Shown here: positions 2,494-32,692 of the stretch, one piece after another | Position numbering within the stretch: the first letter of the stretch is position 1 | Layout: the number at the start of each line of letters is the position of its first letter | Virus record (IMG/VR): IMGVR_UViG_3300046804_002923 | Location: 1-46,057 of that record | Direction: 5' to 3' (one strand) | Source of the DNA: a virus | Length of the DNA stretch: 46,057 nt | Notes under the pieces: model-generated | The model's database searches: none | The model's input: only the letters and a program-made list of their open reading frames with translations | Told to the model about the DNA's origin: nothing | Program-made: the position numbers and the translations under genes

Positions 2494-3996
2494 TTATGGA
2501 TTACATTTAATATAGTGTCGTTTTTCAGTATACGATGTTGAACTAGTATTTTTTGTATGTTCAATAAGTCGCCAATTATCAGGTTCACCTGGTAGTACTG
2601 GCGGAGAAGTGGGTTGTTTACATGTTGCTGGTAGTGTCACACATGATATAGACCCATTAGGATTGGTTCTAGAGGTTGTGATAATCATTTGCTCGGCAGA
2701 AAGACACATTAGATTTTGTATAAGAGTGCCTCTTCCTGGTAATACATGATATACTAATGATGGTGAAGCTTCTATCTTTTCTATAACAGTGTCTACTGAT
2801 CCTCCAGAACCATCGCAACCATCAGAACCATCAGAATTTTTTGGTCCCCACTCAAAAATAAAACTTATGATACCATCGGTATATTGTTTTGTGGTTGTGC
2901 TATTTTTAGGTATTAAACAATCTTTAGGATTGTTATTAGTATTATTGTCTGAATTTATATTATCAAGAAACGAGCATCCGCTAGAGGATGGCATACCTCC
3001 TGGCGGAGGTGTTGTTGTGGGACATGTAGTATTCTTGGCATCAAATGGTGTTCCAGTCCAGTAGATTAAATCTTTATACTGCTTTGCTATAATATTATAT
3101 GCACTATCAGCATTAGCGTATTTGCTTGCTGCGCAAACATCTGGTAATGTCACAATATCACTCCAAGGAACACTAACTAATCCTGTAACTGTGCCAGATG
3201 TTTTTCTTATTCTTTGTGGAGTAGTTTTAATATAAGTTACATTTTCTTCAAACTGTAAATCTACTAATGCTTTCGCCGTTGATGCAGGAGGTAAAAGTAT
3301 CATAGTGCATGTAAAAGTTACTGTTCCATTACCTAACTGTAATGATCTTGATTGTAAAAAAGGACGATAGCTATCATAGCTTCTTAATAGGGGATCGCTA
3401 TGTGCGCATGAATATATTCTTTTCATAACGGCCAGAGCCTTATCATTACCATTAGCTGTTATGCTCTTACAGAAATTTTCACATGTTACAGTTGTTGTGC
3501 TAGAAAATTTAACATAAGATTTGATTGCATTTGGAGAAAAAAATCCGCCATGACTCTCCTCGCCCATTTCTATTGATTGAGAACGAGAAACTTCTCTTAC
3601 ACAATCATCAGCAACAATATTTAAACTATTGTGTGGTATAGTATTTAGTGGACATTTGACTTCTATAGAAAATGCTCCTTGATTTACCCAGGATGGGTCT
3701 GATCCTTGATCGATAGTAACGTTCGTAACTTTACCTAGTTTACTCTCTGCGCCCGGAATCTGAATATTCACACATTCAATTTTTTGACCCAAATTGCTAA
3801 TAATTTTTAAACGACGCATTACTATAGAACCTGTTTGTGCTGAATCAGTATCTGGTATTGTAACAACTCCTGTAACAGTTAATATTTGTACTCCACCAAT
3901 AATTTCTCCCGTATCAGTTTTATAATATTCATATCCTATATTTACATACGGCGCATATGAATCATCCAGAACCGTTGATCCTATAATTATTAACAT
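2494..3996 (-). CDS. Distal tail structural protein, paralogue of the adjacent downstream gene
   Basis: The best start is the ATG at 3996, because AGGAG sits 6 bases upstream. A TTG two codons earlier is in frame but abuts the AGGAG, so it is unlikely. The product has about 500 residues, is beta-rich and soluble, and contains a cysteine- and proline-rich linker in its second half (near 2940-3040) with a run of Asn and Pro residues. It shares its N-terminal block and general plan with the 488-residue product of 1022-2488. It lies directly after the fibre gene with a 15-base gap. I infer a tail-tip or baseplate-like component; there is no recognisable catalytic motif. Confidence 0.8.
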   Translation of the reverse strand: MLIIIGSTVLDDSYAPYVNIGYEYYKTDTGEIIGGVQILTVTGVVTIPDTDSAQTGSIVMRRLKIISNLGQKIECVNIQIPGAESKLGKVTNVTIDQGSDPSWVNQGAFSIEVKCPLNTIPHNSLNIVADDCVREVSRSQSIEMGEESHGGFFSPNAIKSYVKFSSTTTVTCENFCKSITANGNDKALAVMKRIYSCAHSDPLLRSYDSYRPFLQSRSLQLGNGTVTFTCTMILLPPASTAKALVDLQFEENVTYIKTTPQRIRKTSGTVTGLVSVPWSDIVTLPDVCAASKYANADSAYNIIAKQYKDLIYWTGTPFDAKNTTCPTTTPPPGGMPSSSGCSFLDNINSDNNTNNNPKDCLIPKNSTTTKQYTDGIISFIFEWGPKNSDGSDGCDGSGGSVDTVIEKIEASPSLVYHVLPGRGTLIQNLMCLSAEQMIITTSRTNPNGSISCVTLPATCKQPTSPPVLPGEPDNWRLIEHTKNTSSTSYTEKRHYIKCNP

Positions 3997-7762: not shown

Positions 7763-10700
7763 TTATGTCGCTGTTAGATTAACTCTTAACCTACCATTTG
7801 TTGCATCATTTATAGCTCTAGTGATATCTGAATAAATTTGTGTTTTAAATTGCTGTAGTTCTTCGGCTATGCCTTCTCCACCATTAACTGTGACCGATAC
7901 TGTTACTGGTATACTTCCTGTAACTTGTAATCCAATAGACTGTGGAATATTACTAATAGACTTTTCAAAATTTTGTATAGCGGTATTAAATGTACTAATA
8001 CTGGATGTTAATCCTTCTGTTGATCCTCTCAATATTGATGCGGCAGCCGAGAGTCCTTGAGAAGCTGTTGAAATTCCATTTAGGTTATTTATTGCTCCTG
8101 ATAGGGACTGACCACCACTGATAAAGCTGTCAACAACAGATCTTAAACTTTCAACATATTGTGAGAACTTATTAAAAGCACTATCCAATCCGCTAGTATC
8201 CAAACTAATATTAGATACACCACCGGCACCACCCCCACTCATTTCGGCCATTCCACCGCCTTGAAACCTTTGTACCATACCACCAGATGCCATATAAGGC
8301 ATTTTATTGTCATTAATTGCTTGTAGTAATGATAAATTATTTTTGGTTGCTTTTCTATTGACAACAAATTCGCCAGGAGTTAACATAGCAGGAACAGTAT
8401 CGGTACCTCTTGGCTGGAAATTAATAAGTGAACCATTTTGTGCATATACTACACCACCACTTGCGAATCCGGCAGCTTGTCTACGTTGTTGTTGTTCGGA
8501 TAATGCTGCGTCTCGTCTTCCTTGTTTTGCACTTAATGATGCCTCTTTATTTCTATACAATTTATATTCATAATTAAATTTACCTCTCATTACTTTATAA
8601 TGAGCAATCGAATCCATATATTGAGAATAAATTCCTTTTCTACCATTGATACTTTTTTTCTCTTCCTCAGACATACTATCTCTTATAACTTTACCTTGTA
8701 CTGGTTTACTTTTGAATGCTTTTGGTGATGGTGGTGTTTGTTTTACAATAGGTGCCTGTGAAGGTCTTGGCATATCGTCTCTGGCGCCACCAGGATTTGC
8801 AACTTCTGGTTTTACTTTAAATTCATCTAAAATACTATCTGAGAATCCATCTTTAACTATACCAGCTGATAAAATATCTGACTTATATGAATCTCTAAGC
8901 ATTTTTAGTCTAGATACTGCTGTATTTATGTTAAATGTTTGCGCTCCTGCTCCTTCTGCTGTAGTAAATGTTGTACCACCAGTAGAGCGTATTGTTTGTT
9001 CTTTAGCTAGTTCTTTTAAGAAATCAACAGCATCTGTATATGATTCGCCAAAAATTTCTTTTGACCTTTTGATCAGTGCGGGATCTGTTCCTTGTTTACT
9101 TTCTTCAGTTTTATATTCCGCTCTTAATCTTTCAGCGTTTGCAATTTCCGTTAATAGTGCTGTTGATGCTGCTTTAACTCTTTCTTGATTTACATCTTTT
9201 GGATCAATTTTTTGTCCACCGCCAACAATACCACTAGTATTTCTAACATCAAATGCTGTTGCTCTTGCTCTAAAATTAGATGATGTAGATATTTTTGCAT
9301 CAGCAAATACTTTTTTAATTTCCTCCTCTGTTAGTCCGTCAGCACCACGATACTGAGCTACCCATAATGGTATATTGTCTAACCATGTATTTTCTCTTTC
9401 ATCATCTGGAACGTATTTACGTCCTGCTTTTTCTATTTCAGCTTTACGTTTTTCTGTTTCCTGTCTCCATTGCTCATACTCTTTTTTCCATTCTTCTGCC
9501 ATACCTTTGGCTTTTTCGATTTTTTCTTTTTGTTCCGGAGTAACTTGGTTTTCGCCTGTCTTTTTATAATAGAATGCTGGAGTTATAAATCTTGATTTGT
9601 CTGGTGGAACAGGACCGCTAAACCCTTGACCGGACTTAATTTTATCCCAACTATCCTTAATTGTTTTCCATAAATATTCTTTATATGTTAGTTCATCATA
9701 GTACTCTGGAGTAATCGGGGCTACTGGTTGAGACTTTGTTTCTGTAGTAGGAGATGGTGCTGTTGATTGAGTAGTATCTATGGATCCCACCAATTTTGGT
9801 TTGACCGCTTCTATACGAGCAGCTTCTCTTTTGGCAGCGTGATATTTTCTAGCATAGCCTATTGTAGAACCCACACTCTGTATAATAGTTTTAAATCTAT
9901 CAAAACTAAAAGCAGCTATTTGTTCCCCCTTAAGATTATTTAATTCATTGATTGATGATACCAACCCTGCCGGAGCATCAGTACCCACAGGAACAGTTTT
10001 TAGTGCTTTTCCTATTTTTTGAATTAATGGATATGGTCCCTTTGTAGGGTCTTGTCTATGTTTTTTAGCGCCTTTATCAGGATTAGCAAATGCTAGTAAT
10101 TGACTATTCAAAGATTCTATAGCTATCCAATCAATATCGGGTACAGAATCCGGCACCACAATACCGCCAGCAGCATATATAATACCTCCCTTCTGATATG
10201 ATTTGCTACCAACACTACTTCCGCTGTTGATAGCTTTTAATAAACCAAGATTCTGTTTAGTTGCTTTGGCATTTACAACAAACTCTCCCGGAGTAAGCAT
10301 TGCTGGTACGGTGTCTGTGCCACGAGATTCAAATGGAATCATTCTACCATTATTAGCATAAATTAATCCACCATATTGCCTTCTTTGTACCGGTAATGGT
10401 GGCGGACCTTTTCTTTGTGCTGTAAGCGGAGGAGGGCCGCTACGAGGTAGAGGTGGAGGAGTATTGATCGCACGTCTACTATCTTGTAGATCTTTAACTC
10501 TTTTATAGAAAGCATTAACATCAAAAATTCGACTATTACTACTATTTAGTGTTTGATTAAGAATATCACCAAGTAATTGTACTCCTATAGAGTCCAACAT
10601 ATCAACACTTTGCATCATTTGTGTTAAAAATTCTTCTCTAGCCATCCCCAATAATTGATCATATGAACTCTTAACGATACCAGCAGTCTTTAATGCATCA

Positions 10701-13700
10701 TATTGTGCTTTTACCGCGGGTAGAGTCGGTCCCTTGTCTGGATAAAGAGCTAATCTAGCTATATCAAATATACCTTTTGCTCTTTGACCTGTCCATGATG
10801 ATGGAATTATTCTACCAACTCTATCCAAATCGCCACCAAAAATATCTGGAAGATCTTCAAAATCAAATACAGGTGGATATGGAGGTGGCGGATTTTCCCC
10901 TTGACGACTAGCTCTAGTTTCGTATTGATCTCGTTGTTTATAATATTCTTGTAATTGTTTTATCTGATTAGCGTCTAGTGGTAGCGGAGTACCAGACGAG
11001 AGATATTTATTTAATGATCCCCATTTATATAAATCTCGCATTCCCATCGTACTGCCATAACCAGCAATTTCTCTTAAAATATATTGTAATCCATTATCAA
11101 TTGTACTAGCAGGATAACCTGTGAATAGTTCTGAATTTTTAATCATATACTGTATGATATCATTTCTTCTTTTGCTGATCATATCTTGATATCTTGCATA
11201 AGTATCATTTCCAAATCTGTGTAGCATGGCATGAGCGCCTTCATGAAATACAATTCTACCTGTTGCTCCTATGTCGCTGAGATTGTCTCCTGGAACAGCT
11301 AATCTCATGCTTTTTATGGACTCTGACCATGATCCGCCTTCTTTTATTTTTGATTGTTGTTCTAGAACTGTTACTACATCTTTAGGTATAATTCTTTCTA
11401 AGGGTACTCCTATTAATTTAGCCATTTCTGCTAATGTAATAGCTATACCATCAGTAGTAATTTGTTTATCTAATTGCTGATTTAATTTTACCGGATCAAA
11501 TTCAGTATCCAAATTCATTAATTTTATTGTTCTACCAAACATATCTTTTATAGTTTGTGGTGGGGTAGCTTTGGCTTGAGGCGCTATATATTTAGATAAT
11601 CTTTGTCTTAAATCTTCTATAGAAAAACTAGGTAGAGCTATATTTGCTGGATTATCAGTTTCTATATTTTGTCCTTGTAAATTTTGCTCTATAAGTCTAG
11701 TATTAGGATTATTTTTGAGTTGTGGTGGTTGATCAGAATTTTGTTTAGCTATCTTTTGTCCTTCTGCCATTCTATCTTCAATTATTTTCTTTATTTTACT
11801 GTATTGTTCCATAGCAACTTGACCAAGCATCTCAGGACTATTTGCTCTGGGATCATTTTCATAATCGAAGAACTTGAATCCTTCCAGTCTTTCCAAAAAC
11901 ATTCTCGGATTTTTTCTTAATAATTCCATTAAACCAAATTGCTCTAAACCATGTGTACCAAACATACTATTTTTCATTATAGATAACCATTTATCTGATA
12001 ATATTAAATCTTTATATCCAGATGCTGGTGTTTCTACAAATGCTTTACCTGTGGGAAAAGTAGGCTGGGTTTGAAAATCTGGACCGCCTATATCAACGGG
12101 AACTATTCTGTTGGTACCAAATACAAAATTAGTTAATTTTGAATCAGATAATCCAGTAATATATCCTTTTTCTGCCAAGGCCAACTGATCTCTAAATAAT
12201 TGAGCAAAAACATCACTACTATATCCCTGTAATGTGGATAATAAATCTAATGCTTGAGTATCTTCGAGCGCTGTAGAACTCTCTGATCTTCCAAATTTTT
12301 TCTTATTAGATGCTGATAAACCTTTAACTCTACCAACAATCGCACCCACCCATGCTCCATTTTCTGATACCCGCGCTATTCTGCCACCAAACTGAGATTC
12401 GAAACTAGCCCTATCTCCAGTTATAGGATCTATTGACAGGTCTAGATTTGATAAACTAGATGGGATTGTAGATTTATCAAGATATAGGGCCAGATTATCT
12501 GTCAATGACCATGCTGCGGAATTCGCTCCCTGACCTAATAATTCAGATCTCTCAATCAAAGCCTTTAAACGCTCAGCGGATAGTGTTTTGACTTCTGTTA
12601 GTAGTTCATCGTAGGCACCAACCGCATCTATCGGTAATTTTATATCTGGTGAAGTTAATGTAAAATTATCTTTACTTCTTTGTCTGGAGGCGAAATAATT
12701 TTGTTGTTGATCATAAAGTAAATCTGCATTTTCAAGCTTACGATCACGCGCATCTTCTATTTGTTTCTTAGTAAGTGGATCATCTTTTTTTAATCGTTCT
12801 GATCCTGAATATGCAGGACTATTTAATTCTTTTTCTGCGTCGTCGAATATTTTTTTTCTTAATTGAAAAATTGCATCGTCTCGTTGTTCTTTGAGACCAC
12901 CAAAACGTGGTCCAATTTTTGGATTTAATGTATATGGTCCCGGTATTCCTACTCCTGGCATAGTTCCTTGGACATACGGCCTAGTTCTGGCTAGTGCTGC
13001 CGCTTGAGCTTTTCTTTGTGATCGAGTTAGTCGCATATTAACAGGTACAGGTGTTTTTGGTAATGATAATCCTTTTGCAACAAATGCCTCACCAATATCA
13101 TTTAATATTTGCTGTGCTACTAAAAGGCGTTCATAAAATGGAGCATCAAGTAGTCCAGCGTCTGGGGGCGCTCCATATTGACTAATAGTGCCCGCTTTGT
13201 TATAATATGGATTTTGTCGTTCTTGATCTAATGAGTCTAATTCTTGTTCTGTTGGTATCTTTAAATGTGTGCTTCCATCAGTTTTTAAATTTATAGAATA
13301 TCCACTACGTAAACCAATTATAGTATCATTATTAACGGGCTCGGTTTTATTTCTAGCTTCACTTTCTTTTTTAAATTCTAGTATTTTTACTAATTCTTCT
13401 CTATCTAATCCTGGATAATTAGGATTAAATGTTTTTTGTTTCCATGGTACAAAACCACCTTTACTAAAATATGATGTTCCAGATTTATTACTATTATTTA
13501 TTGCATGTAATAACCCAAGATTTTGTTTCGTAGCTTTGGCATTAACTACAAATTCTCCAGGTGTTAACATAGCGGGAACAGTATCGGTTCCTCTGGGTTG
13601 AAAATTAATTAATGAACCATCGCTAGCGTATACCATTCCTCCAGTTTGATATCTACCAACTTTATTATTAAGAGCAGCGTCTCTATTAGCTTTTAAACGC

Positions 13701-16700
13701 CTACTATAGTTATATTTTCCACGCTCTCTAATATAGTATGCTAATGAGTCTTTATACTGTGAAGCAGCACTTTTACGGCCATAAATATTGTTCTTCTGTG
13801 TCTCTGTCATGCCGGCAACAGTAGTTTTACCAGGAACTTTATCAGCTCCTTCAACTGGCGGATTTTGAGTAAATAATTGAGCATATTTAGCATCGAATGC
13901 CATTAGGGTAGCATCAGAAAAATCATCGGCTTTAAATTTATTCTCTGGTTTATCATACGTTAACTTAATAGATTTTAATTTATTAACAATATTTTGAACA
14001 TCAATATTATTATCATTATTATCAGGAATATGAATCTTATTATTTTTTCTAAAAATTGTTAAATTGCTTAATTGATCCAAAGCATCTATAGCTTGTTCAT
14101 AATTGCTAGATACTTTTGATAGTGATATATTTACAGCATCTTTATTACCATTAGAGGTTATTAATGCGGCGTACTCGTTAACATTTTTAAGGGCTTCATT
14201 AGTTTTTTCTTGAAGTGTAGTAGCAGTTTGCTTAATTTGATTAATATCTACATCACCAATTGGTCCACCATTAATTGGGCCAACTAGTCGAGTATCAAAC
14301 TGTGTAACTCTGGCTCCTGTGACGGTTGCTTCTTCACGAGCTTTATTTTCCTTTACTATATCAGCTATATCTAAACCATGAAGTTTTAATGATTCTTCAG
14401 ATTTAAGAAAATCTCCGAAGCTTGCTGCTCCAGCTATCAGTTTATCTCTATATGGGAAATCTCTAATTGCTCTTTCTGGAAATGTTTTATTCTTTATATT
14501 TTTAACATGCTGTTCGTATGCGTCTCCATACTTAGTATATAGTCTAGCCATCACATCTTCTTCGTTCTCAACTTCGCCTGTACCTAATTTAGTTTTAGTA
14601 TAAAAAGCATCAGTAGTAAAGCGTCCTCTTTCGGGAGGAACAGGGGAAAATCCTTGACTTATAATTTTATCTAAATATTCCTTATATGTTAATTCATCAT
14701 AATATTTGGGGGCTGGAGGAATTTTTTCTGGAACCTCTGGTGGTTTGGGAAGAGTATCTGGCTCAAATTTAGCCGGATCAACATTCTGAATATTGTTATA
14801 TTTAAGATACTCTCTAAAGGATGATGCTGCTAATTTAACTTTGGCATCTCTGGCGCCGATATTGGCTTTCTTAAAGTCTAAATATTCGTTAAATATTTTT
14901 ACTTGTTCAGGATCAAGCTCTACTGTTGGTGCTACTGGTTGTTCTATGGGTAAATTAGGCGCTGAATATCCATTATTAACATCTATAAGGCTGAGCAATG
15001 CTGAATTATTAGTTTTATCAACAAAATTTCTATAGTATTCTTTAAGATTTAAAAACTCTCTTAATTTCATTTTAGAGACATTTCTGTTTGCCCAATACGG
15101 CAATTCACCTGGTTTAGCCCCTAATAAAGAATACCACATACTATCATCATGGAGACCTTTGGTATCTTTAATTTTATTACCAAGTTCTATCAATAAACTA
15201 TTAAAATCAAAAGTTTGTGCTATGGCATCTTTAACATCAAAACTAGCGGATGGTATGAAAATATTTTTTTGTAATCTGCTATTAGTATCCCTAATATCAG
15301 ACATAATAGACCCACCGGTTCTAGCATATACAACTCCACCATTACTATATACTGATGAACCACTATTGATTGATTTTAATAATCCAATATTATTCTTTGC
15401 TGCTTTCTTATTAACAACAAATTCTCCTGGTGTTAGCATCGCCGGTACAGTATCGCTGCCCTTTGGTTTAAAATTGATGAGCGCCCCATCGTTTGCATAA
15501 ATAACACCACCCCTACGATTACCGCCAGCGTTTGCGATACCTCTACCTCCGCCTCCGACATTTAGACCACCAGCGACATTAGCATCTCCACCAATATTAA
15601 GAGTGCCAGCTTTACCTACAGATGCTACCCAATCGTCAGCAGCTTGAATTACTTTATTATATAAATAATCCGCACCTTCTTTTGTTCGTGCAGCAATTTG
15701 TTCATTAGCTTTTGCCGCTGTTTCATTTGCATCTCTAAATTCTTTGATAGCCTGATTAAGGGCGCCGTCTTCTCCAAAACCACCAAGTTTTAGTAATTGA
15801 TTAACAATATTTTGTGCTTCTCCAGCGCCGGCTCCGGTTGCTCTGGCAACAACTTCAGCAGCTTGTCTAGCAAATGCTTCTCTTTCTCTATCTGCATCTG
15901 CTGGTTGTAATGTTTGTAGTCTTCTTTCCAAAGCATCTATAGCTGGACCGAGATCTGCTAAATTTCCTCTACCAGATAATACTCGTGTATAAGAACCAAC
16001 ACTATTAATAAAAGATTGAACCCATTGAGGATTATTGATATTTTTAAATACATCAAATAATTGTCCTCTAGCACCTTCTCTCGCTTGATTAATGCTTTGT
16101 ATTTTACTCATAGCATTAGACGCGCGAGTAGTATCAGACGCCAATTTTTCCTGTGCTTTTGCTAAATTTCTTGCCTCGTTGGTGGTCTTAACCAAACTAG
16201 CATTTAATTGATTCCATTGCGGACTATTAACAGCAAATTGATCTCGTCTTTTTTCTATTCTAGCTTTTTCTGCTTCTAGCATATCCTGTCTACGTGCTAT
16301 TTCTATAGGATCTCCTGTTGCGCCAAGTTTTTGTCCATTTGGCGCACTAACATCTGTTAGTTTAGCTATTGATTGATTAAAAGCGGCATTCATATCCATT
16401 AGAGAAACTTCTTGTTTTAATGCTTCTCTAAGTTGTACTTCACTATTTAATCTTATATCAGATGCTTTAATTTGATAATCTGTTGCCCTACCAAGAGCAT
16501 CTACATATTGATTCATTCGTGTATTAACTTCAGCAAGCATATCATTGTATGCTTTTTGAGCTTGTTCTGCTGTCTTTAATTGATCATTATACGCCTGTAG
16601 AATTTTTTGTAGTGTTTGCGATGAATTTGCTATCTCTGATAATGAAGTTTCTTGAGTAGAGATTCTTTTATCTTGTATAGCAGACATAGTATCATTGACA

Positions 16701-19700
16701 ATCTGTTCTACATCTACATCTCCTAAACCTTTCAATGAGTTTCTGATTTCGTCCTTAATTGCTTCTTGATCAGCTTCAAATGAACCTCCTTTCTGTAATG
16801 CTCCAGCTCTAGATAAAATTTGTGGCAAAGATGTCTCCAAGGTTCTCATACTTAAAGCTGTAGCTTCTAATCTTTTGCTGAATTCAGGATCAAATCCTAC
16901 TTTATCTCCAAGATTTTTAATAGCATCAGAAATTTCTTGATTAGAATAAGCACCCAAATTTGATAAAATATTTTCATTAAGTCTATCTGGTTTTTGTATA
17001 GATAAAGTATCTCCTAGTCTTGAACCCAAATTAATATCAAGTAGTCTAGAATTATTCGAAAATTCGGCAGATGCTCTGCTAACTGCCTCAGAGACATTCT
17101 TTAATGCCATATTAAAAATAGTTATTGCATTTGCTGCTTCCAATGCCGCTTGTTGAGAGGCTTTCTGTACTTCTATTCTTTTTTTCTCTGCCTGAACCTG
17201 TTCATTAGCGGCATTTGTAAATTCTTGCCAAGTTTTATCAATAAGATCTTGAAGTTCTGTTTCTTGCTGTTTTGTATCTTTACCCGCAGATTTCCTTGAT
17301 GTAATCTCTGCCATTTTTTGTGTAACTGCGGCACCGCCTTCTGCCACAGCAAAAGATCTTTTCACTTGTTCTAGAGTGCCAGCACCCAGACCTTCTATCT
17401 GTTGCTGTATTTGATCAAGGCTTAATCCTTGGGTCAATGCTTGGTTTATATATTTTTGTATACCAGCAGCACTAGTTTTGCCAATGCCAGCTAATTCGGA
17501 ACTCAATGCTTTTGTATCGACCTGATATCCTAATGCTGCACCAATATTAGTTACCATAGCATCATTTTGTTTTGTTCTTCTTATAGTTTCTTCAGCTTGA
17601 GCAGCAGATTTTACACCACTTAAAATTTCCCCCATGATTGGTTTAGTATCTTGTTTTCTATCTGTAGCATCTTGCAATCTTTCGAATGATTTATCCAAAC
17701 CAGAGGCTGATGTTTCCAATTGTTTCTGTTGTTTTTCTAATTGCTGTTGTTTAAGCGCATCGTTCCATCCTTTGACACCGGCTGTAACACCAGCTATTCC
17801 AGCAACTAAAAGTTTAAATGGTAGTGGTCCTGGAATTACAGAGAATGCTAATGTTGCTGCGCTACCAAAATTACTTAATGCACTACCTAATGGTCCTTCA
17901 ATATAACTTGTTAAACCCTGAAATGCGAATAATAAACCAGCTAATTCAAGAGTACCTCCTTGTCTTCCACCAGGGACTTGTGATCCTTGATTAGTGAAAT
18001 TTCTAGTTCCAGCTCTTACTCCACCTTGTCTGGCTGTTCCTGCTCCTGTTCTTGGAACACCAAATCTTGATAATCCACTACTTAGTCCTGTAAGAGACGA
18101 AGTTAATCTAGTTACTACAGGTAATAATCTATTAAATGCAGTTACTATTCCGCCAATAAAGAATCTCTGAACACCACCGCCACCAGCAAACTCTTGAATA
18201 TGACCAACAGCACCACCAGTATTAAAACCACTAATTTTATCTGCTTTATTTAATTGATGTAATTTTGCTTGTCCTATTCTTGATGCAGCCTTTTTATTAA
18301 TAACAAATTCACCAGGAGTTAATAAAGCCGGAACGGAATCTACATTACCACCTCTGGCGAATCTATTGAAAGTTACACCTTCAAATTTACCACTATTAAT
18401 ATCATTAATAATTTTTCTTTTAATAGAATCTATAGCGTCTGGAGTAGCTGTTCTTTTGGCGTCAGCTTTAATTAAACTATTAATTCCTTCACCGCTCTTA
18501 TCCGTAAACATTTTTGCCAATGATTCTCTTGAGGATGCAATATTTGGAAAATCGAAACTAGATTGATCACCAGCAAGTTTAGCTCCGGTTATTGCCTGTA
18601 CTACGCCTTCAAATACGAATCCTGATGTTGTTAATTGTGCATTTTTATCATCAGCTATTCTTTTAGCTCCTTTTTGTGCCTGAGATCTGTTAACGCTAAT
18701 GATAGGATTAGAAAGAGAATTTAGAATGGGATCAATAGATTTAAGAACAGTATTATATAATCCTTTTCTTGTATTTTCTGTTACTGTTGATGATACTCCG
18801 GATGCTTGTAAATCATTCTTACCAGGATAGTATGAAGAAATAGCTCCAGATATTGGTATTTCTTGTCCAGATACTAATAATTTATCTTTTTTAAGTCCAA
18901 CGCTAACTCTTTTTTGTGCTCTGTTTGGATCATATGTTTGAATTTCTTCTCTTGAATATCCAGCATCAAAAAGAGCATTTCTGGCCTCTCTAGTATCTAC
19001 AAATTTTCCATTTTTAATTAATTTACTTGTGTCAATTTTTTTTCTATTTTTACCAGTAGAAAATCCTAAAATTTTGGACTGTATATCACTTGTAGCTAAT
19101 GAGAATGCTTGTGATCTTGCGTCTGGAACTTTTGGGGCTTTTCCTAATTGTTTGAGTGCCGATAGATTCTTAATCAATGCTTCACCACCTATATTGACTG
19201 GTGATCTATCAGAACCTTCTGTTGGAGATAAAAAGAATGCCCCAATTTTAGATGGATCAACAACTATTCCACCTTTAGCATATCGATTCATATTTTTTAA
19301 ATTATTAACACCAATAGCTTGTACAGCTTTTTTACGAATAACAAACTCACCCGGCGTTAACATTGCGGATACAGTATCTCTACTACCGCTACCAGGAACT
19401 AAACCTCCTGTAGCAAATCGTCTTCCACCACCACGAGATATACCACCGGAAAACCCACTTATATATTGACCTAATGAACCTATACCACGCAAAGCTAATA
19501 TAGCTGTTATCGCTGGAAGCGCTTCTTTAGCCGCACTTGCAACAGCAATTAATCCACTAGCAAGTTTTAGCGAAATATCAGCAAATGTTTGAAAACTTTG
19601 GCTTTGACCAATATCTCTAATTAATGCAATAAATTCTTCGCGTACTCTAGTAATTTTAACAGAAAGTGCTTCTTGTGCTTTTGCCGCATCTGCCGCTAAT

Positions 19701-20950
19701 GATCCTGAACCTCTTTGAGCAACACCTAGCGCTTGTTGTGCCGTAGCAAACTGTTGAATAAGAGGAATAACTTTACCAATTTGTCTAAATCCACCGAGTT
19801 CTTCTACTATTTGTGAGAATCTCAAATCTCTTGGATCAAGAGTCTTTAAGCCTTCGCTCAGACGTCTAACAGCTTCGTATGGGCCAACGAATTTACCTTC
19901 AAGATCTGTTAATTCAATTCCAAATCCTTTAAGAGCTTCTATAGTAGCTCCTCGTTGGATACGAGTAAAAATAGTTCGTAAACCAGTAGCGATAGTTTCG
20001 GCGCTTTCACGAGTTGTAGCACGAACACTTGTAAATACTGCAATAAATTCATTCAATGCATCTTTACCCTGACTTACTCCTCTGCTTGCAGCAGCAAACA
20101 CACCACCAGTGCGCTGTACAGCAGTTATAATATCGCTAGCTTCCACAGCAAATCTAGCAGCAACAGCATTGATTGAACCTAGTGCCCCTTCTAGATCTTT
20201 AGCGCCTAGCCCAAACTGTCTCAATATAGCAATAGATCCTTCCACTGTTGATCCAAGATCATCAAAAGATGGCGCAAGTGCGGATTTTGCTAATGCTTCT
20301 AAAGCAACTCTAGTTTCACCGGCACTCAAACCAGCCTGGGCTAATGTAGTAGAAACATTTAATAAATCACTAGATGTAACACCAAGAGAAGTTGATAATC
20401 TGGTAATTTCATCTGCCAATGGTTTTAAACTTGATGCAGAAGATTCTGTTACTTGTTGTAGTCTAACAAATTCTTTATTAAAGTTGATAAACTCGCTTGA
20501 TGCGCTAGATATAGCGTTTATTAAAGCGTAAATTCCTCCTGTAGCCACACTAAAGGCAGCAAATCTTCTAATAGCTAAAGCAGACTGTCTGCCGAATTCC
20601 TCCATCTCTGATCTAGCTCCACCAATAGCATTCTGTGCATTTCTAGCTTGTGTATTTGCTTGATTAAAACCAGCATTGATAGTATTAGTAATATTACCTA
20701 TATTACTCCCTCTTGCACCAATATTATTTATCGCAGCAGCTAATGCTGCGGCATTATTCTGAGCATCTCTTAATGCAACACTAAGATTACGTACGTCACC
20801 AGTCAAAGACCGAATAGCCCCAGATGTAGCCTGATTAATATTTAAATTTAGACTAACAGTGGATAGTTGTCTTCTAATATTAGAAACAACTTGATTAAGG
20901 TTAGATGGACCTCTTAAATTAATTTCTGCGGTAAGATTAAATGCGGCCAT
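7763..20950 (-). CDS. Giant tape measure protein (4395 aa) with embedded kinase-like and metallopeptidase domains
   Basis: The start ATG at 20950 is preceded by GGAGG at good spacing. Residues about 130-470 form a TP901-type phage tail tape-measure core (helical, Ala- and Gln-rich, with GGVFAAASRGVSQGKDALNE-like helices). A hydrophobic stretch follows near residues 1000-1060. Six PGEFV repeats occur near residues 530, 880, 1830, 2455, 3545 and 4185. A kinase-like core spans about 2795-2960 and an HEGAH motif lies at 3236-3240. A proline-rich tract sits near 3500. Residues 2083-2480 and 3750-4210 are homologous copies. The protein sets tail length and may enter the host. By the usual proportion of about 1.5 angstrom per residue, the upper bound is a tail of roughly 650 nm, less if the folded domains do not act as ruler. 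Confidence 0.95.
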   Translation of the reverse strand: MAAFNLTAEINLRGPSNLNQVVSNIRRQLSTVSLNLNINQATSGAIRSLTGDVRNLSVALRDAQNNAAALAAAINNIGARGSNIGNITNTINAGFNQANTQARNAQNAIGGARSEMEEFGRQSALAIRRFAAFSVATGGIYALINAISSASSEFINFNKEFVRLQQVTESSASSLKPLADEITRLSTSLGVTSSDLLNVSTTLAQAGLSAGETRVALEALAKSALAPSFDDLGSTVEGSIAILRQFGLGAKDLEGALGSINAVAARFAVEASDIITAVQRTGGVFAAASRGVSQGKDALNEFIAVFTSVRATTRESAETIATGLRTIFTRIQRGATIEALKGFGIELTDLEGKFVGPYEAVRRLSEGLKTLDPRDLRFSQIVEELGGFRQIGKVIPLIQQFATAQQALGVAQRGSGSLAADAAKAQEALSVKITRVREEFIALIRDIGQSQSFQTFADISLKLASGLIAVASAAKEALPAITAILALRGIGSLGQYISGFSGGISRGGGRRFATGGLVPGSGSRDTVSAMLTPGEFVIRKKAVQAIGVNNLKNMNRYAKGGIVVDPSKIGAFFLSPTEGSDRSPVNIGGEALIKNLSALKQLGKAPKVPDARSQAFSLATSDIQSKILGFSTGKNRKKIDTSKLIKNGKFVDTREARNALFDAGYSREEIQTYDPNRAQKRVSVGLKKDKLLVSGQEIPISGAISSYYPGKNDLQASGVSSTVTENTRKGLYNTVLKSIDPILNSLSNPIISVNRSQAQKGAKRIADDKNAQLTTSGFVFEGVVQAITGAKLAGDQSSFDFPNIASSRESLAKMFTDKSGEGINSLIKADAKRTATPDAIDSIKRKIINDINSGKFEGVTFNRFARGGNVDSVPALLTPGEFVINKKAASRIGQAKLHQLNKADKISGFNTGGAVGHIQEFAGGGGVQRFFIGGIVTAFNRLLPVVTRLTSSLTGLSSGLSRFGVPRTGAGTARQGGVRAGTRNFTNQGSQVPGGRQGGTLELAGLLFAFQGLTSYIEGPLGSALSNFGSAATLAFSVIPGPLPFKLLVAGIAGVTAGVKGWNDALKQQQLEKQQKQLETSASGLDKSFERLQDATDRKQDTKPIMGEILSGVKSAAQAEETIRRTKQNDAMVTNIGAALGYQVDTKALSSELAGIGKTSAAGIQKYINQALTQGLSLDQIQQQIEGLGAGTLEQVKRSFAVAEGGAAVTQKMAEITSRKSAGKDTKQQETELQDLIDKTWQEFTNAANEQVQAEKKRIEVQKASQQAALEAANAITIFNMALKNVSEAVSRASAEFSNNSRLLDINLGSRLGDTLSIQKPDRLNENILSNLGAYSNQEISDAIKNLGDKVGFDPEFSKRLEATALSMRTLETSLPQILSRAGALQKGGSFEADQEAIKDEIRNSLKGLGDVDVEQIVNDTMSAIQDKRISTQETSLSEIANSSQTLQKILQAYNDQLKTAEQAQKAYNDMLAEVNTRMNQYVDALGRATDYQIKASDIRLNSEVQLREALKQEVSLMDMNAAFNQSIAKLTDVSAPNGQKLGATGDPIEIARRQDMLEAEKARIEKRRDQFAVNSPQWNQLNASLVKTTNEARNLAKAQEKLASDTTRASNAMSKIQSINQAREGARGQLFDVFKNINNPQWVQSFINSVGSYTRVLSGRGNLADLGPAIDALERRLQTLQPADADREREAFARQAAEVVARATGAGAGEAQNIVNQLLKLGGFGEDGALNQAIKEFRDANETAAKANEQIAARTKEGADYLYNKVIQAADDWVASVGKAGTLNIGGDANVAGGLNVGGGGRGIANAGGNRRGGVIYANDGALINFKPKGSDTVPAMLTPGEFVVNKKAAKNNIGLLKSINSGSSVYSNGGVVYARTGGSIMSDIRDTNSRLQKNIFIPSASFDVKDAIAQTFDFNSLLIELGNKIKDTKGLHDDSMWYSLLGAKPGELPYWANRNVSKMKLREFLNLKEYYRNFVDKTNNSALLSLIDVNNGYSAPNLPIEQPVAPTVELDPEQVKIFNEYLDFKKANIGARDAKVKLAASSFREYLKYNNIQNVDPAKFEPDTLPKPPEVPEKIPPAPKYYDELTYKEYLDKIISQGFSPVPPERGRFTTDAFYTKTKLGTGEVENEEDVMARLYTKYGDAYEQHVKNIKNKTFPERAIRDFPYRDKLIAGAASFGDFLKSEESLKLHGLDIADIVKENKAREEATVTGARVTQFDTRLVGPINGGPIGDVDINQIKQTATTLQEKTNEALKNVNEYAALITSNGNKDAVNISLSKVSSNYEQAIDALDQLSNLTIFRKNNKIHIPDNNDNNIDVQNIVNKLKSIKLTYDKPENKFKADDFSDATLMAFDAKYAQLFTQNPPVEGADKVPGKTTVAGMTETQKNNIYGRKSAASQYKDSLAYYIRERGKYNYSRRLKANRDAALNNKVGRYQTGGMVYASDGSLINFQPRGTDTVPAMLTPGEFVVNAKATKQNLGLLHAINNSNKSGTSYFSKGGFVPWKQKTFNPNYPGLDREELVKILEFKKESEARNKTEPVNNDTIIGLRSGYSINLKTDGSTHLKIPTEQELDSLDQERQNPYYNKAGTISQYGAPPDAGLLDAPFYERLLVAQQILNDIGEAFVAKGLSLPKTPVPVNMRLTRSQRKAQAAALARTRPYVQGTMPGVGIPGPYTLNPKIGPRFGGLKEQRDDAIFQLRKKIFDDAEKELNSPAYSGSERLKKDDPLTKKQIEDARDRKLENADLLYDQQQNYFASRQRSKDNFTLTSPDIKLPIDAVGAYDELLTEVKTLSAERLKALIERSELLGQGANSAAWSLTDNLALYLDKSTIPSSLSNLDLSIDPITGDRASFESQFGGRIARVSENGAWVGAIVGRVKGLSASNKKKFGRSESSTALEDTQALDLLSTLQGYSSDVFAQLFRDQLALAEKGYITGLSDSKLTNFVFGTNRIVPVDIGGPDFQTQPTFPTGKAFVETPASGYKDLILSDKWLSIMKNSMFGTHGLEQFGLMELLRKNPRMFLERLEGFKFFDYENDPRANSPEMLGQVAMEQYSKIKKIIEDRMAEGQKIAKQNSDQPPQLKNNPNTRLIEQNLQGQNIETDNPANIALPSFSIEDLRQRLSKYIAPQAKATPPQTIKDMFGRTIKLMNLDTEFDPVKLNQQLDKQITTDGIAITLAEMAKLIGVPLERIIPKDVVTVLEQQSKIKEGGSWSESIKSMRLAVPGDNLSDIGATGRIVFHEGAHAMLHRFGNDTYARYQDMISKRRNDIIQYMIKNSELFTGYPASTIDNGLQYILREIAGYGSTMGMRDLYKWGSLNKYLSSGTPLPLDANQIKQLQEYYKQRDQYETRASRQGENPPPPYPPVFDFEDLPDIFGGDLDRVGRIIPSSWTGQRAKGIFDIARLALYPDKGPTLPAVKAQYDALKTAGIVKSSYDQLLGMAREEFLTQMMQSVDMLDSIGVQLLGDILNQTLNSSNSRIFDVNAFYKRVKDLQDSRRAINTPPPLPRSGPPPLTAQRKGPPPLPVQRRQYGGLIYANNGRMIPFESRGTDTVPAMLTPGEFVVNAKATKQNLGLLKAINSGSSVGSKSYQKGGIIYAAGGIVVPDSVPDIDWIAIESLNSQLLAFANPDKGAKKHRQDPTKGPYPLIQKIGKALKTVPVGTDAPAGLVSSINELNNLKGEQIAAFSFDRFKTIIQSVGSTIGYARKYHAAKREAARIEAVKPKLVGSIDTTQSTAPSPTTETKSQPVAPITPEYYDELTYKEYLWKTIKDSWDKIKSGQGFSGPVPPDKSRFITPAFYYKKTGENQVTPEQKEKIEKAKGMAEEWKKEYEQWRQETEKRKAEIEKAGRKYVPDDERENTWLDNIPLWVAQYRGADGLTEEEIKKVFADAKISTSSNFRARATAFDVRNTSGIVGGGQKIDPKDVNQERVKAASTALLTEIANAERLRAEYKTEESKQGTDPALIKRSKEIFGESYTDAVDFLKELAKEQTIRSTGGTTFTTAEGAGAQTFNINTAVSRLKMLRDSYKSDILSAGIVKDGFSDSILDEFKVKPEVANPGGARDDMPRPSQAPIVKQTPPSPKAFKSKPVQGKVIRDSMSEEEKKSINGRKGIYSQYMDSIAHYKVMRGKFNYEYKLYRNKEASLSAKQGRRDAALSEQQQRRQAAGFASGGVVYAQNGSLINFQPRGTDTVPAMLTPGEFVVNRKATKNNLSLLQAINDNKMPYMASGGMVQRFQGGGMAEMSGGGAGGVSNISLDTSGLDSAFNKFSQYVESLRSVVDSFISGGQSLSGAINNLNGISTASQGLSAAASILRGSTEGLTSSISTFNTAIQNFEKSISNIPQSIGLQVTGSIPVTVSVTVNGGEGIAEELQQFKTQIYSDITRAINDATNGRLRVNLTAT
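8329..8453 (-). repeat. PGEFV repeat, copy 6 (tape measure)
   Basis: Encodes a GGVVYAQNGSLINF segment, then DTVPAMLTPGEFVVNRKAT and a helix NLSLLQAIND. It is the last of six copies and ends the second large duplicated block. Confidence 0.85.
8329..9703 (-). repeat. Tape-measure internal duplication, copy B (about residues 3750-4210)
   Basis: This block starts with YYDELTYKEYLWK and continues with VPPDKSRFITPAFY, RARATAFDVR, GFSDSILDEF, SINGRKGIYSQYMDSIAHY and finally a PGEFV repeat. Each marker has a counterpart in the same order in copy A at 13525-14704. It is recognisable at protein level only, so the duplication is old. Confidence 0.8.
10253..10375 (-). repeat. PGEFV repeat, copy 5 (tape measure)
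   Basis: Encodes GGLIYANNGRMIPFESRG, then DTVPAMLTPGEFVVNAKATK and NLGLLKAINSGSS. It follows the proline-rich tract. Confidence 0.85.
10376..10480 (-). other. Proline-rich tract in tape measure
   Basis: Three PPPL-type motifs (TPPPLPRSG, GPPPLTAQRK, GPPPLPVQRR) lie near residues 3490-3525, between the metallopeptidase-like domain and the fifth PGEFV repeat. Such a tract is usually an extended linker. The spaced PPPLPxxR motifs also resemble class II SH3 ligands, but no SH3 domain is seen in the window. Confidence 0.7.
10960..11590 (-). other. Metallopeptidase-like domain inside tape measure (HEGAH)
   Basis: Residues 3236-3240 read HEGAH within RIVFHEGAHAMLH, the zincin HExxH pattern preceded by hydrophobic residues. 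A candidate third zinc ligand is Glu3294 in YILREIAGYG, 58 residues after the first His, as in gluzincin-like families where a distant Glu completes the site. The domain is bounded by the kinase-like region and by the proline-rich tract. Peptidases in tape measures are usually thought to act on peptidoglycan or on the protein itself. HExxH with a distal Glu suggests a protein-cleaving enzyme, but substrate and activity are unproven. Confidence 0.6.
11950..12590 (-). other. Protein-kinase-like catalytic core inside tape measure
   Basis: Residues 2805-2814 (LGQGANSAAW) look like a glycine-rich nucleotide loop. Residues 2933-2955 contain GLSD-S-K-L-T-N-FVFG and then VPVDIGG. Asp2936, Lys2938, Asn2941 and Asp2953 have the spacing of the protein kinase catalytic loop and DFG motif (D-x-K-x-x-N, then about 12 residues, then D-x-G). 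The HRD histidine is replaced by Leu. The beta-3 lysine is not certain; Lys2826 in ALYLDK is one candidate. The fold could be a true kinase, an aminoglycoside-kinase-like enzyme, a pseudokinase or an AMPylator. Confidence 0.55.
13525..13645 (-). repeat. PGEFV repeat, copy 4 (tape measure)
   Basis: Encodes GGMVYASDGSLINFQPRG, then DTVPAMLTPGEFVVNAKATK and NLGLLHAINNSNK. It ends the first large duplicated block and is very close in sequence to copies 5 and 6. Confidence 0.85.
13525..14704 (-). repeat. Tape-measure internal duplication, copy A (about residues 2083-2480)
   Basis: The block starts YYDELTYKEYLDK and continues with VPPERGRFTTDAFY, GARVTQFDTR, DFSDATLMAFD, NIYGRKSAASQYKDSLAYY and a PGEFV repeat. 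The order and spacing parallel copy B at 8329-9703. Confidence 0.8.
15393..15515 (-). repeat. PGEFV repeat, copy 3 (tape measure)
   Basis: Encodes GGVIYANDGALINFKPKG, then DTVPAMLTPGEFVVNKKAAK and IGLLKSINSGSS. Confidence 0.85.
18263..18355 (-). repeat. PGEFV repeat, copy 2 (tape measure)
   Basis: A shorter copy encoding RFARGGNVDSVPALLTPGEF, then VINKKAASRIGQ. It lacks the YAxDGxLINF lead-in seen in copies 3-6. Confidence 0.85.
19310..19415 (-). repeat. PGEFV repeat, copy 1 (tape measure)
   Basis: Encodes GGLVPGSGSRDTVSAMLTPG, then EFVIRKKAVQAIG. It is the most divergent copy and closes the N-terminal tape-measure core. Confidence 0.85.
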
Positions 20951-27762: not shown

Positions 27763-28998
27763 CTAATTATTTAAGAAATATTTTTCAACTTGATTTATTG
27801 ATTCTGTGTCTAAAGTTGGCAAATAACTAATAGAATCTTTTATATCAGGATGAATCCACCAGTCTTCAAAAGGACTAAATTCATCTGGGGATACATTCGG
27901 AACAATTAGTATATATCCTTTGAAAAATAAATATTCTCTAGATTTATTTCTATAGCATCTATTAACATCAACATAATGATCATGTTCATATGTTATAATA
28001 TTAAATTTGTATTTATCAAATGGAATACTAGTTAAAGCTTCATATGTACTATTTGAAGGTTCTATATCTAGTTGTAGATAATCTATAGTATAGATATTAT
28101 GTAGATATTTATTTAATATTTTATTATAATCTAATAATAATGCATCAGAATGAATCACCGGATTGGTTCGTTGTTGCTTATGTTGTTTTACATAGTCTTC
28201 ATTATATTCTATTCCAACTCCTTTCCATCCTAGTTTTTCCAAAAGAACCGTATTACTATTCTTGAATGGTTCTGATGATCCTATCTCAAGATAGGTGCCA
28301 TTTATTTTACCATTTAATACTGTTAATATGAACATATCCTGATATACTTGAGAAAAATTACGATCTATATTTTGTATTCCAGGAAATTTATATTTTAGTT
28401 TTGGTAGTAAATTTTTTGTATATGTTCGAATAGCATTTGATTCTGGTCCACAACCTAGTTGGCTAAGATTAGATTGTAATAAATTTTTATATTTATCATT
28501 CAATTGATCTAAGTATTCATTAAGTAATATTCTGTATATTTTTCTAGCTTCTGCGGGTTTGCCAACCCACCATGCGCTAGCAGCTTTTTGAAATAAAAAT
28601 GCGTATTTACCAACAAAATTTATACTTTTATAAAATACTGACGAATCATTACAAACATCTAAAGCTATGCTAGAATATGTATAAACATTAATCCAATCGG
28701 ATGTTGTTTCATATAATTCAGTTAATAATAGATATGCTTCAGGTTTACGAGGACATAATGATATAGCTTGTCTTAGCAAAACCTCGCAGGTTGTAAACCT
28801 ATTGCCCAGAGCATTAAAGCAGAAGAAGGTGCGTAGAAGTACTTCGTATCTTAAGTCTATACTATCTGTTTTTTCTGCCGCCCTTAAATAAAATGTTGAG
28901 GCTGGGGAATATTGTTGTAGATTCTCATAGTATAATCCAAGATTAAAATTAATAAGATCATTATCTGGATTATTTACATATTCATATAGTTCTTTCAT
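27763..28998 (-). CDS. TPR-FkbM-type methyltransferase fusion
   Basis: This 411-residue protein has an N-terminal helical repeat region (about residues 1-185) with TPR-like pairs such as LGLYYENLQQYSPASTFYLR and AYLLLTELYETTSDWINVYT. A class I SAM-dependent methyltransferase domain of FkbM type follows. The glycine motif is TYLEIGSSEPFKNSNT near residue 240, followed by GWKGVGIEYNEDY, then DYLQLDIEPSNSTYEAL and an FNIITYEHDHYVD segment. FkbM enzymes O-methylate sugars or similar groups. It overlaps the propeller gene by 4 bases, so both probably act on the same glycan, perhaps on the virion surface. It is unusual inside a structural module. Confidence 0.85.
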   Translation of the reverse strand: MKELYEYVNNPDNDLINFNLGLYYENLQQYSPASTFYLRAAEKTDSIDLRYEVLLRTFFCFNALGNRFTTCEVLLRQAISLCPRKPEAYLLLTELYETTSDWINVYTYSSIALDVCNDSSVFYKSINFVGKYAFLFQKAASAWWVGKPAEARKIYRILLNEYLDQLNDKYKNLLQSNLSQLGCGPESNAIRTYTKNLLPKLKYKFPGIQNIDRNFSQVYQDMFILTVLNGKINGTYLEIGSSEPFKNSNTVLLEKLGWKGVGIEYNEDYVKQHKQQRTNPVIHSDALLLDYNKILNKYLHNIYTIDYLQLDIEPSNSTYEALTSIPFDKYKFNIITYEHDHYVDVNRCYRNKSREYLFFKGYILIVPNVSPDEFSPFEDWWIHPDIKDSISYLPTLDTESINQVEKYFLNN

Positions 28999-30014: not shown

Positions 30015-32288
30015 TTAAGTAATAACATATAATGTATTAGTATCGTAACTTCCTAGATTATCATAATCTATTTGACTAATCTTTACTATATTTTTAACTA
30101 TGCTAGCACCAGATATATTATCTATATCAGTAAATATAACTTTATTATTATTTTCCCAAACTGCTGTTCCACTATTATAAATTAATGCATCATTATGGGT
30201 TACACTAGTGATAGTCACATCATCCAAATTGTCAAGATATTGAATAGTTATCCCTTGAGACCCTTCTAATCCTTGAATTCCTTGAATCCCATCAGCTCCT
30301 TGTATCCCTTGAATACCTTGAAGTCCATATCCATCTGTACCCTGAGCGCCCTGTTGACCAAGATCTCCTTGTATTCCTTGGATACCCTGCAATCCTAATC
30401 CATCATAACCCTGGATACCTTGAATTCCATCGTATCCTTGGATTCCCTGAGCTGCAAATGAGCCATCTAATCCTTGAGTACCCTGAATACCTTGGGCCGC
30501 ATATTCTCCATTTAATCCTTGGATACCTTGTATACCTTGTATGCCTTGTATACCTTGAACACCTTGAATACCCTGTATACCCTCACCAACATCGCCAGTT
30601 CTAGAAAATATAACTATTAGAATATTATTATTTAATGGTATTGTAGTTCCAGATATATGTGATACCGGTATGATATAATAACCAGAAGAACTACTTACAT
30701 TACCTACAATAGAAAAAATATTAATTGCATTAGTATCAATATCTATTATAGATAAAGTACCCATATTAGATAGTGTTGAGCTATCATCCCATATTTCATA
30801 CCATGTTGTCTGATTATTATTAAAATAATCATTTTCATCTATATAAATATTCGTCACGCTGGCTGCTACGGAATTATCGTATGCTAAATATCCAGTACCC
30901 GGATCAGTATTACTAGTATTATTATTAAATTGATACATAATACCAGCTTGTCCTACTGGTCCCTGAATCCCCTGAGCTGCATATGCTCCATTTAATCCTT
31001 GAATCCCTTGAGTACCCTGTATACCCTGTATCCCTTGAGTACCCATATCTCCGGTTCTAGAAAAAACAATAATAACTTTTTCTTCATCTAGCGGAATAGA
31101 TGAACCAGAAATATTTATAACAGGTATTTTAAAATAATTAGTAGAATATATAATAGTCAATGGATCTGTAAGATCAATATTAAAAATATTTGTTAAACCA
31201 TTTTCTGTTACAATAGTAATAGTACCTACATATGGTATACTAGTACTATCATCCCAAGATAAATACCAGTTAGATAAATTATTACTATAAAAATCTAAAT
31301 CACTAATATATATGTATCCTATATTACCTAGTGTGCTATCATCATATCTAAAATATCCTGAGCCAGGGTCGCTATCCGTAGTCGAATCGTCAAAAGTATA
31401 TTTAACTCCTCCTGTTAATGCATTAATTCCGTCTGTACCCTGAGCGCCATCGTAGCCTTGTATGCCATCATAACCCTGTATTCCTTGGATACCTTGAGAG
31501 CCTTGAATACCAGCATCTCCTTGTATTCCTTGGATACCTTGCATACCTTGCATAGCCATACCTTGAGCACCATCGTAGCCTTGTATCCCCTGAGTACCCT
31601 GCATATATGCATCTGTACCAGCTTGGCCTTGAATACCTTGCAAGCCTTCTTGACCTTGGATACCTTGGATACCTTGAGTGCCAGTTTCTCCTTGTATTCC
31701 TTGGATACCTTGCATGCCTTGAATACCTTGCAAGCCTTCTTGACCTTGAATTCCAATTTCTCCTTGTATTCCTTGAGTACCTTGCATATATGCGTCTGTA
31801 CCAGCTTGGCCTTGAGTACCTTGAATACCTTGGATACCTTGAGTTCCTTGATTTCCATCGTAGCCTTGTATTCCTTGAACACCCTGCATATATGCGTCTG
31901 TGCCAGATTCACCCTGAACACCTTGAACACCTTGGATGCCCTGCAATCCTTGTAAGCCTTGTATACCTTGAATACCTTGAATTCCTTGTATACCCTGATT
32001 ACCTATTAAACCCTGTATACCTTGTAAACCATTAATACCTTGGGTACCTTGAGAGCCAATTATGCCCTGATTGCCTTGTGGTCCTTGTACGCCCTGCATA
32101 GTTGCGTTGGAACCTTGTATACCCTGTATGCCTTGAGCCCCTGCTCCTGGCGGTCCTTGTTGACCTTCATTAATAGTGATAATAGAATTTGTATTAGATA
32201 CGCCACTAACACTAACTATACCTCCCTCTGTCGATTGTATAGAAATAATAGGATTAATTGATTCTTGATTGATGGTAACAGTACTCAT
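30015..32288 (-). CDS. Collagen-like fibre protein
   Basis: The best start is the ATG at 32288, giving MSTVTINQESIN. It shares one base with the upstream TAA (TAATG), so it is probably coupled. A longer frame starting at 32303 would overlap the neighbour. The product has 757 residues. After a short N-terminal domain, long Gly-x-y arrays of G-I-Q or G-T-Q type alternate with two related globular inserts (YTFDDSTTDSDPGSGYFRYD and YQFNNNTSNTDPGTGYLAYD, each ending VFSRTGD). The C-terminus has LDDVTITSVTHNDALIYNSG and a YDTNTLYVIT end typical of phage fibres. It is probably a trimeric neck, head or tail fibre. Confidence 0.92.
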   Translation of the reverse strand: MSTVTINQESINPIISIQSTEGGIVSVSGVSNTNSIITINEGQQGPPGAGAQGIQGIQGSNATMQGVQGPQGNQGIIGSQGTQGINGLQGIQGLIGNQGIQGIQGIQGIQGLQGLQGIQGVQGVQGESGTDAYMQGVQGIQGYDGNQGTQGIQGIQGTQGQAGTDAYMQGTQGIQGEIGIQGQEGLQGIQGMQGIQGIQGETGTQGIQGIQGQEGLQGIQGQAGTDAYMQGTQGIQGYDGAQGMAMQGMQGIQGIQGDAGIQGSQGIQGIQGYDGIQGYDGAQGTDGINALTGGVKYTFDDSTTDSDPGSGYFRYDDSTLGNIGYIYISDLDFYSNNLSNWYLSWDDSTSIPYVGTITIVTENGLTNIFNIDLTDPLTIIYSTNYFKIPVINISGSSIPLDEEKVIIVFSRTGDMGTQGIQGIQGTQGIQGLNGAYAAQGIQGPVGQAGIMYQFNNNTSNTDPGTGYLAYDNSVAASVTNIYIDENDYFNNNQTTWYEIWDDSSTLSNMGTLSIIDIDTNAINIFSIVGNVSSSSGYYIIPVSHISGTTIPLNNNILIVIFSRTGDVGEGIQGIQGVQGIQGIQGIQGIQGLNGEYAAQGIQGTQGLDGSFAAQGIQGYDGIQGIQGYDGLGLQGIQGIQGDLGQQGAQGTDGYGLQGIQGIQGADGIQGIQGLEGSQGITIQYLDNLDDVTITSVTHNDALIYNSGTAVWENNNKVIFTDIDNISGASIVKNIVKISQIDYDNLGSYDTNTLYVIT
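30250..30597 (-). repeat. C-terminal collagen-like (GIQ) repeats
   Basis: Tandem Gly-Ile-Gln and Gly-x-y triplets, interrupted by GEYAAQ, GSFAAQ and GYDG units. At DNA level, 9-base units such as CAAGGTATA recur. Confidence 0.9.
31430..32165 (-). repeat. N-terminal collagen-like (GIQ) repeats
   Basis: About 240 residues of nearly uninterrupted Gly-x-Gln triplets, with AGTDAYMQG modules recurring at several points. Near-identical 9-base DNA units make the tract prone to slippage, and long open frames on the other strand here are by-products of the repeats. Confidence 0.92.
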
Positions 32289-32692
32289 TAGACACCAGAG
32301 CAACTAAATTTTGTAATCTCGGGTTGTATAGTAACAGTTCCCTGTAAAAGTCGTGTAATTTGTGGGCCTCCGCCAGAATAAAAAACTGCATAAGATTCTA
32401 ATTCCATATCATAACTTGCTGATGTAAAATTATATCCGGCTGTGATACTGGCTGGTATTTTAAAGTTAATAATTCCGCTGCTCAATGGTGAACTAAACTC
32501 AAATAAATATAATCCACTATTAGTATTACTAGTACTAAACTGATAGACACTATTATTATCTGCATTCCATTGCATTCTAGCACAATTAAAGCCAGAAAGA
32601 TCTATAGGAATACCGCTACCATCTGCATATGTTAGACTAAAACCAAATGAGGCGCCTTGCTCGATTGTAAAATTATATGTGCCTGCTGGCAT
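32288..32692 (-). CDS. Small beta-sandwich virion protein, relative of the gene at 27259-27669
   Basis: The ATG at 32692 has AAAGGA upstream. The 134-residue product begins MPAGTYNFTIEQGASFGFSL, continues with DLSGFNCARMQW and SASYDMELES, and ends RLLQGTVTIQPEIT. This pattern is very common in structural modules of marine and cyanophage-like genomes. It resembles small fibre-anchoring or decoration domains. Its stop overlaps the start of the collagen fibre by one base, which suggests that it anchors or co-assembles with that fibre. Confidence 0.82.
   Translation of the reverse strand: MPAGTYNFTIEQGASFGFSLTYADGSGIPIDLSGFNCARMQWNADNNSVYQFSTSNTNSGLYLFEFSSPLSSGIINFKIPASITAGYNFTSASYDMELESYAVFYSGGGPQITRLLQGTVTIQPEITKFSCSGV

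Follow-up and report, generated by a model that had tools for sequence, protein, structure and literature searches.

Tape measure proteins are commonly regarded as rulers and DNA channels. Siphophage tape measures are believed to exit the tail and to build a channel in the envelope, and that of phage P23-45 carries an RNA polymerase whose supposed place of action is there (PMC10770324). Polyvalent proteins are also very large; they are predicted to be injected together with the DNA, and it was proposed that they are processed by zincin domains of their own (Iyer et al., 2017, PMC5512222). In this work, we analysed a window that comprises the whole IMG/VR record IMGVR_UViG_3300046804_002923 (46,057 bases), in which a giant tape measure gene contains a kinase-like motif. 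We found no literature on a kinase inside a tape measure. We consider it fairly likely that its product is a tape measure of the polyvalent type, in which enzyme modules are swapped and the module at residues 2503-3520 would combine a candidate divergent kinase with a probable zincin.

The tape measure and its module layout

The ORF list and translation gave an open reading frame of 4,395 aa (7763..20950) on the minus strand, on which all other features described here are also located. The protein matched PF10145 (PhageMin_Tail) with an E-value of 3.5e-24, which passed the cut-off, and the PHROG tape measure families matched it as well. The protein is a phage tape measure, and the initial annotation was correct on this point. 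A single-sequence search with the conserved tape measure core (residues 1-520; 19391..20950) found 37 relatives with identities of 51-76%, and a profile search of IMG/VR found 411, where the relatives were deduplicated only roughly and near-identical records may be missing from the searches. Six contigs from bacterial metagenome-assembled genomes of mixed groups were also matched by profile. The middle region (residues 950-1880; 15311..18103) is conserved too, with BLASTP E-values to the relatives down to 1e-156. Judged from the character of its sequence, it has a hydrophobic stretch near residues 1020-1080, after which a long rod-like sequence follows. In BLASTP comparisons with the relatives, the core, residues from about 850 to 1880, the repeats described below and the C terminus all matched.

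A further conserved domain was observed at residues 722-850 (18401..18787) and occurs in 129 of the 141 tape measures longer than 900 aa. It contains E781, D800 and the DAK at residues 828-830, and the conservation of the E, D and K is 97, 98 and 82%, respectively. The conserved E, D and (D/E)xK expected of the PD-(D/E)XK group are all present in this domain, which is PD-(D/E)XK-like in its motif only. The AlphaFold (AF2) model of this E-D-K domain, calculated from 61 sequences, reached a pLDDT of 76.9 and a pTM of 0.61. A PD-(D/E)XK nuclease fold was considered but not confirmed, as Foldseek gave no match in PDB or BFVD at an E-value of 0.001.

The DTVPAMLTPGEF motif is present in six copies in the tape measure of the window (19283..19369, 18245..18331, 15359..15445, 13490..13576, 10220..10306 and 8306..8392), and a looser form of it was found in 130 of the 141 longer tape measures. 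The fourth and fifth copies form the upstream and downstream borders of the putative cargo module at residues 2503-3520 (10391..13444). The core, the middle region and the repeats are common to the relatives, but neither BLASTP nor phmmer nor tblastn revealed a counterpart of the module between the two copies in the relatives examined. Residues from about 2590 to 3400 gave no BLASTP match in the relatives, and in single-sequence searches with unfiltered phmmer, neither the kinase-like segment nor the zincin region had a homologue in the six-frame ORFs of the relatives' loci or in the C-terminal parts of 40 records. The same kind of search matched residues 561-865 to the loci L044 and L045 at 1e-112, which means that these methods do detect shared modules. 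The kinase-like core had been described as buried in the tape measure. It does lie inside the tape measure ORF, but its module is missing from the relatives and does not belong to the conserved rod. Two spacer modules flank the module, namely A (residues 1890-2430; 13661..15283) and the partly similar A' (residues 3600-4150; 8501..10153), which have the stretches YYDELTYKEYL and YxDSLAxYxxxRGKxNY in common and gave weak matches to a few relatives, including L004 and L354. We propose that a conserved scaffold of core, hydrophobic stretch and long rod would be broken up by modules inserted between DTVPAMLTPGEF copies. If the tape measures of the group do carry exchangeable enzymes, the gain and loss of modules of 500-1,000 residues would call for a new look at the relationship between tape measure length and tail length.

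Among the other genes of the window, the one at 30015-32303 encodes a collagen-like tail fibre protein with many PHROG tail fibre matches, and the one at 27763-28998 has a weak glycosyltransferase match (phrog_13126, E 4e-4). The large subunit of the terminase (38558-40561) has its nearest isolates among Bacillus and Microcystis phages. Their identity of only about 25% places the virus in a group without a close isolate in the collection searched.

The kinase-like segment

The candidate kinase-like segment spans residues 2795-2965 (12056..12568) and was delimited by the order of its motifs only. It contains a glycine-rich loop-like stretch, GQGANSAAW (residues 2806-2814; 12509..12535), a catalytic-loop-like D2936-x-K2938-x-x-N2941 (12128..12145) and a DFG-like D2953-I-G-G (12083..12094). 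The G-x-G loop (G2806-Q-G2808), which the initial annotation had placed about 130 residues before the catalytic-loop-like residues, is indeed found at that distance, and Leu2934 occupies the position of the HRD His, as had also been reported. Furthermore, K2826 (12473..12475), which had been missed, is 20 residues past G2806. A VAIK-type lysine would be expected at this position, and K2826 is a candidate ATP-binding residue by its place relative to G2806.

The four residues D2936, K2938, N2941 and D2953 had been taken to reproduce the spacing of the kinase catalytic loop and DFG motif. They are present in GYITGLSDSKLTNFVFGTNRIVPVDIGG and in frame, but the spacing alone is at the level of chance. 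We compared 438,723 aa of the tape measures of the window and its relatives with 20 shuffles, which ignore the relatedness among the sequences. The pattern D.K..N.{8,14}D was observed 25 times and expected 26 times, that is, about 0.26 times per protein of 4,395 aa. With a G two residues past the last D, there was one occurrence (that of the window) against 1.95 expected, and when a G-rich loop was required at 95-165 residues upstream, there were two against 1.15. The glycine-loop pattern itself was found 13 times in the tape measure family, with 11.6 expected. Since the four-residue spacing does not exceed chance, it is not evidence by itself. When hydrophobic residues around the N and before the D were included, one occurrence was observed against 0.15 expected (about 0.0015 per protein), for a pattern that is post hoc because it was drawn from the window sequence after viewing. 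The wider context of the motif is unusual and suggestive. In the same 438,723 aa, the full kinase-like motif was seen in the tape measure of the window alone, and regular-expression searches for further kinase-like tape measures gave only chance-level matches. A DNA-pattern scan of 2.9 million viral contigs with D.K..N.{9}VDIG found 17 stretches, all of them in unrelated proteins.

Curated kinase HMMs from Pfam, NCBIfam and PHROG did not match the segment at E-values up to 10. Kinase-PolyVal (PF18762) did not match anything in the window at E-values up to 1 and was not found in the relatives tested, and Pkinase was absent from the 50 related records searched. By comparing residues 2788-2985 with member-built profiles in hhalign, scores of 19.0 for HipA_C, 12.4 for APH, 10.0 for PolyVal (a profile built from four members) and 9.5 for Pkinase were obtained. 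The scores for PolyVal, Pkinase and APH were not above background and lend no support to these families. The HipA_C score was reached by 7.5% of tape measure windows and by 5% of shuffles; it lies within the top 5-8% of the null and is therefore not significant. The best local alignment to HipA_C extends over 42 columns, includes the preceding helix and pairs D2936 with the catalytic Asp and N2941 with the catalytic Asn. For HipA_C, 3 of 300 null windows had an equal catalytic register, and for APH 8 of 300 did, in a test that is not independent because the segment was chosen beforehand for having the D and the N.

It is an even question for us whether the kinase-like motif is a coincidence in a fast-evolving module of some other fold, in which case the module could nonetheless serve as cargo, its sole recognisable enzyme being the zincin. 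The chance-level spacing and the same pattern in unrelated viral proteins are in line with a coincidence, as are the restriction of the full motif to the window and the Pkinase, APH and Kinase-PolyVal profiles, which give the segment no support. On the other hand, a coincidence would have to bring the G-loop, the lysine, the catalytic loop and the DIG together in the right order and at plausible spacings, and to keep the HipA_C profile in register through the preceding helix.

The single-sequence AlphaFold (AF2) prediction of residues 2728-3070 had a pLDDT of 39.7 and a pTM of 0.28. The structure prediction proposed for the segment gave no confident model, whether of a kinase fold or of another one. 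The proposed comparison of homologues found none in the collections searched, which covered the related tape measures and the whole records of the relatives, viral contigs (by peptide patterns), phages, plasmids and 395 bacterial genomes from the phylum of a Chitinophagia MAG. L281, the single match among the 395 genomes, did not hold, and a match at an E-value of 3 in Erwinia phage Kaldavass was rejected because it was to a short protein without kinase motifs. Neither of the two outcomes that the initial annotation had named as refuting was obtained. With no HMM match and with profile scores not significantly above the null, the kinase fold of the initial annotation is so far not supported. 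The present results neither show nor refute such a fold, and we regard a kinase identity of residues 2795-2965, as read from the motifs, as possible with a confidence somewhat short of even. A degenerate kinase-derived domain, without catalysis and retained for binding or structure, seems very improbable to us. The Leu in place of the HRD His and the distance of the sequence from all kinase families tested would agree with such a domain, but the candidate Lys, the catalytic Asp, the Asn and the metal-binding Asp are all there.

The probable zincin region and the enzyme domains of related tape measures

Directly after the kinase-like segment, a probable zincin metallopeptidase-like region is located at residues from about 3150 to 3475 (10526..11503). 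It has both elements expected of a zincin, namely an HExxH in the form of HEGAH (residues 3236-3240; 11231..11245) and a downstream Glu ligand. The latter is represented by E3439-E3440 of an EEFLT (10631..10636), a candidate third metal ligand which was aligned to the EEFLT of the relatives' zincins. The zincin profile of the relatives (hmmsearch) matched residues 3418-3469 with an i-E-value of 0.00078 when only the protein of the window was searched, and this match was not significant against all tape measures. In a two-sequence comparison, L073 gave a local BLASTP match to the region with an E-value of 0.001. The region has no Pfam match.

Of the 29 records of relatives searched for the PF03496 ADP-ribosyltransferase (ADPrib_exo_Tox), five had a match above the curated cut-off. 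Each of these matches is inside an open frame of 3,437-5,855 aa, which corresponds to the tape measure in size and location (loci L007, L065, L096, L092 and L041 in records G007, G585, G599, G595 and G587). The HExxH motif after the core was observed 41 times, with 0.45 expected from shuffles of 388,178 residues; the count includes related copies within groups and does not represent 41 independent events. The contexts of HExxH in the relatives fall into several unlike groups. Pfam matches to HIGH_NTase1_ass in three members (best 5e-4) were weaker than those to the ADP-ribosyltransferase. P-loop, HAD-like and nucleotidyltransferase-like motifs also recur within the tape measures; L012, L017 and L037 have P-loop and HIGH-nucleotidyltransferase-like motifs, and L037 has a HAD-like motif as well.

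The idea that an enzyme may be carried inside the tape measure holds for the family, in which PF03496 and HExxH domains do occur within tape measures. Because the relatives hold other enzymes in like modules, the module of the window is probably a segment of delivered cargo, and in this cargo reading we place good confidence. We hypothesize that the tape measure exits the tail tube ahead of or together with the DNA, so that its modules would reach the periplasm or the cytoplasm. The zincin could cut either the polypeptide that contains it or some protein of the host. The kinase-like domain, once freed, might modify a host target or protein. We infer the delivery and the proteolytic release by analogy with polyvalent proteins and P23-45, and the kinase fold and the kinase activity are likewise inferred. 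We regard it as unlikely that the segment is an active and highly divergent kinase without detectable sequence relatives, which would travel with the DNA, be set free by the zincin and come from a pool exchanged among the tape measures of a large group of uncultured phages.

The HExxH domains could also be proteases of a maturation step in which the tape measure is trimmed during assembly, with modules that never get to the host. We judge this to be rather unlikely. Such a role would be consistent with the processing of polyvalent proteins proposed for zincins (PMC5512222) and with the frequent metallopeptidase domains of tape measures (PMC10770324), but the ADP-ribosyltransferase modules of the relatives have no evident function in assembly. 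If the cargo reading is true for the group, which has more than 400 relatives in IMG/VR, the tape measure gene would be a place to seek host-takeover and anti-defence activities. A structural or biochemical test would be needed before the kinase claim itself gains importance.

Comparison with kinase families, polyvalent proteins and P23-45 gp96

Of the kinase-like families compared, HipA_C (PF07804) was the best of the four profile comparisons, with its catalytic loop in register with the segment, but the segment has no Pfam match and the score does not stand out from the null. Kinase-PolyVal (PF18762), which comprises short kinase-like domains of phage polyvalent proteins, has the same order of G-loop, Lys, Asp, Asn and following Asp, whereas the Gln that the family conserves in its last N-lobe strand is not recognisable in the segment. 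In phages and conjugative elements, polyvalent proteins combine zincin, ADP-ribosyltransferase, kinase and other domains (PMC5512222), and in this respect the tape measures of the window and its family may resemble them. At least two unrelated enzyme domains, as expected of a polyvalent protein, are found at the level of the family (ADP-ribosyltransferase and HExxH); in the window, only the zincin is reasonably supported. The text of the polyvalent-protein paper never mentions tape measures (PMC5512222), whereas here the domains are inside a tape measure scaffold. The protein of the window is also like P23-45 gp96 (5,002 aa; PMC10770324), a giant tape measure with enzyme and metallopeptidase domains. 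However, gp96 has one N-terminal RNA polymerase, while in the family of the window the modules follow the core and vary from one relative to another.
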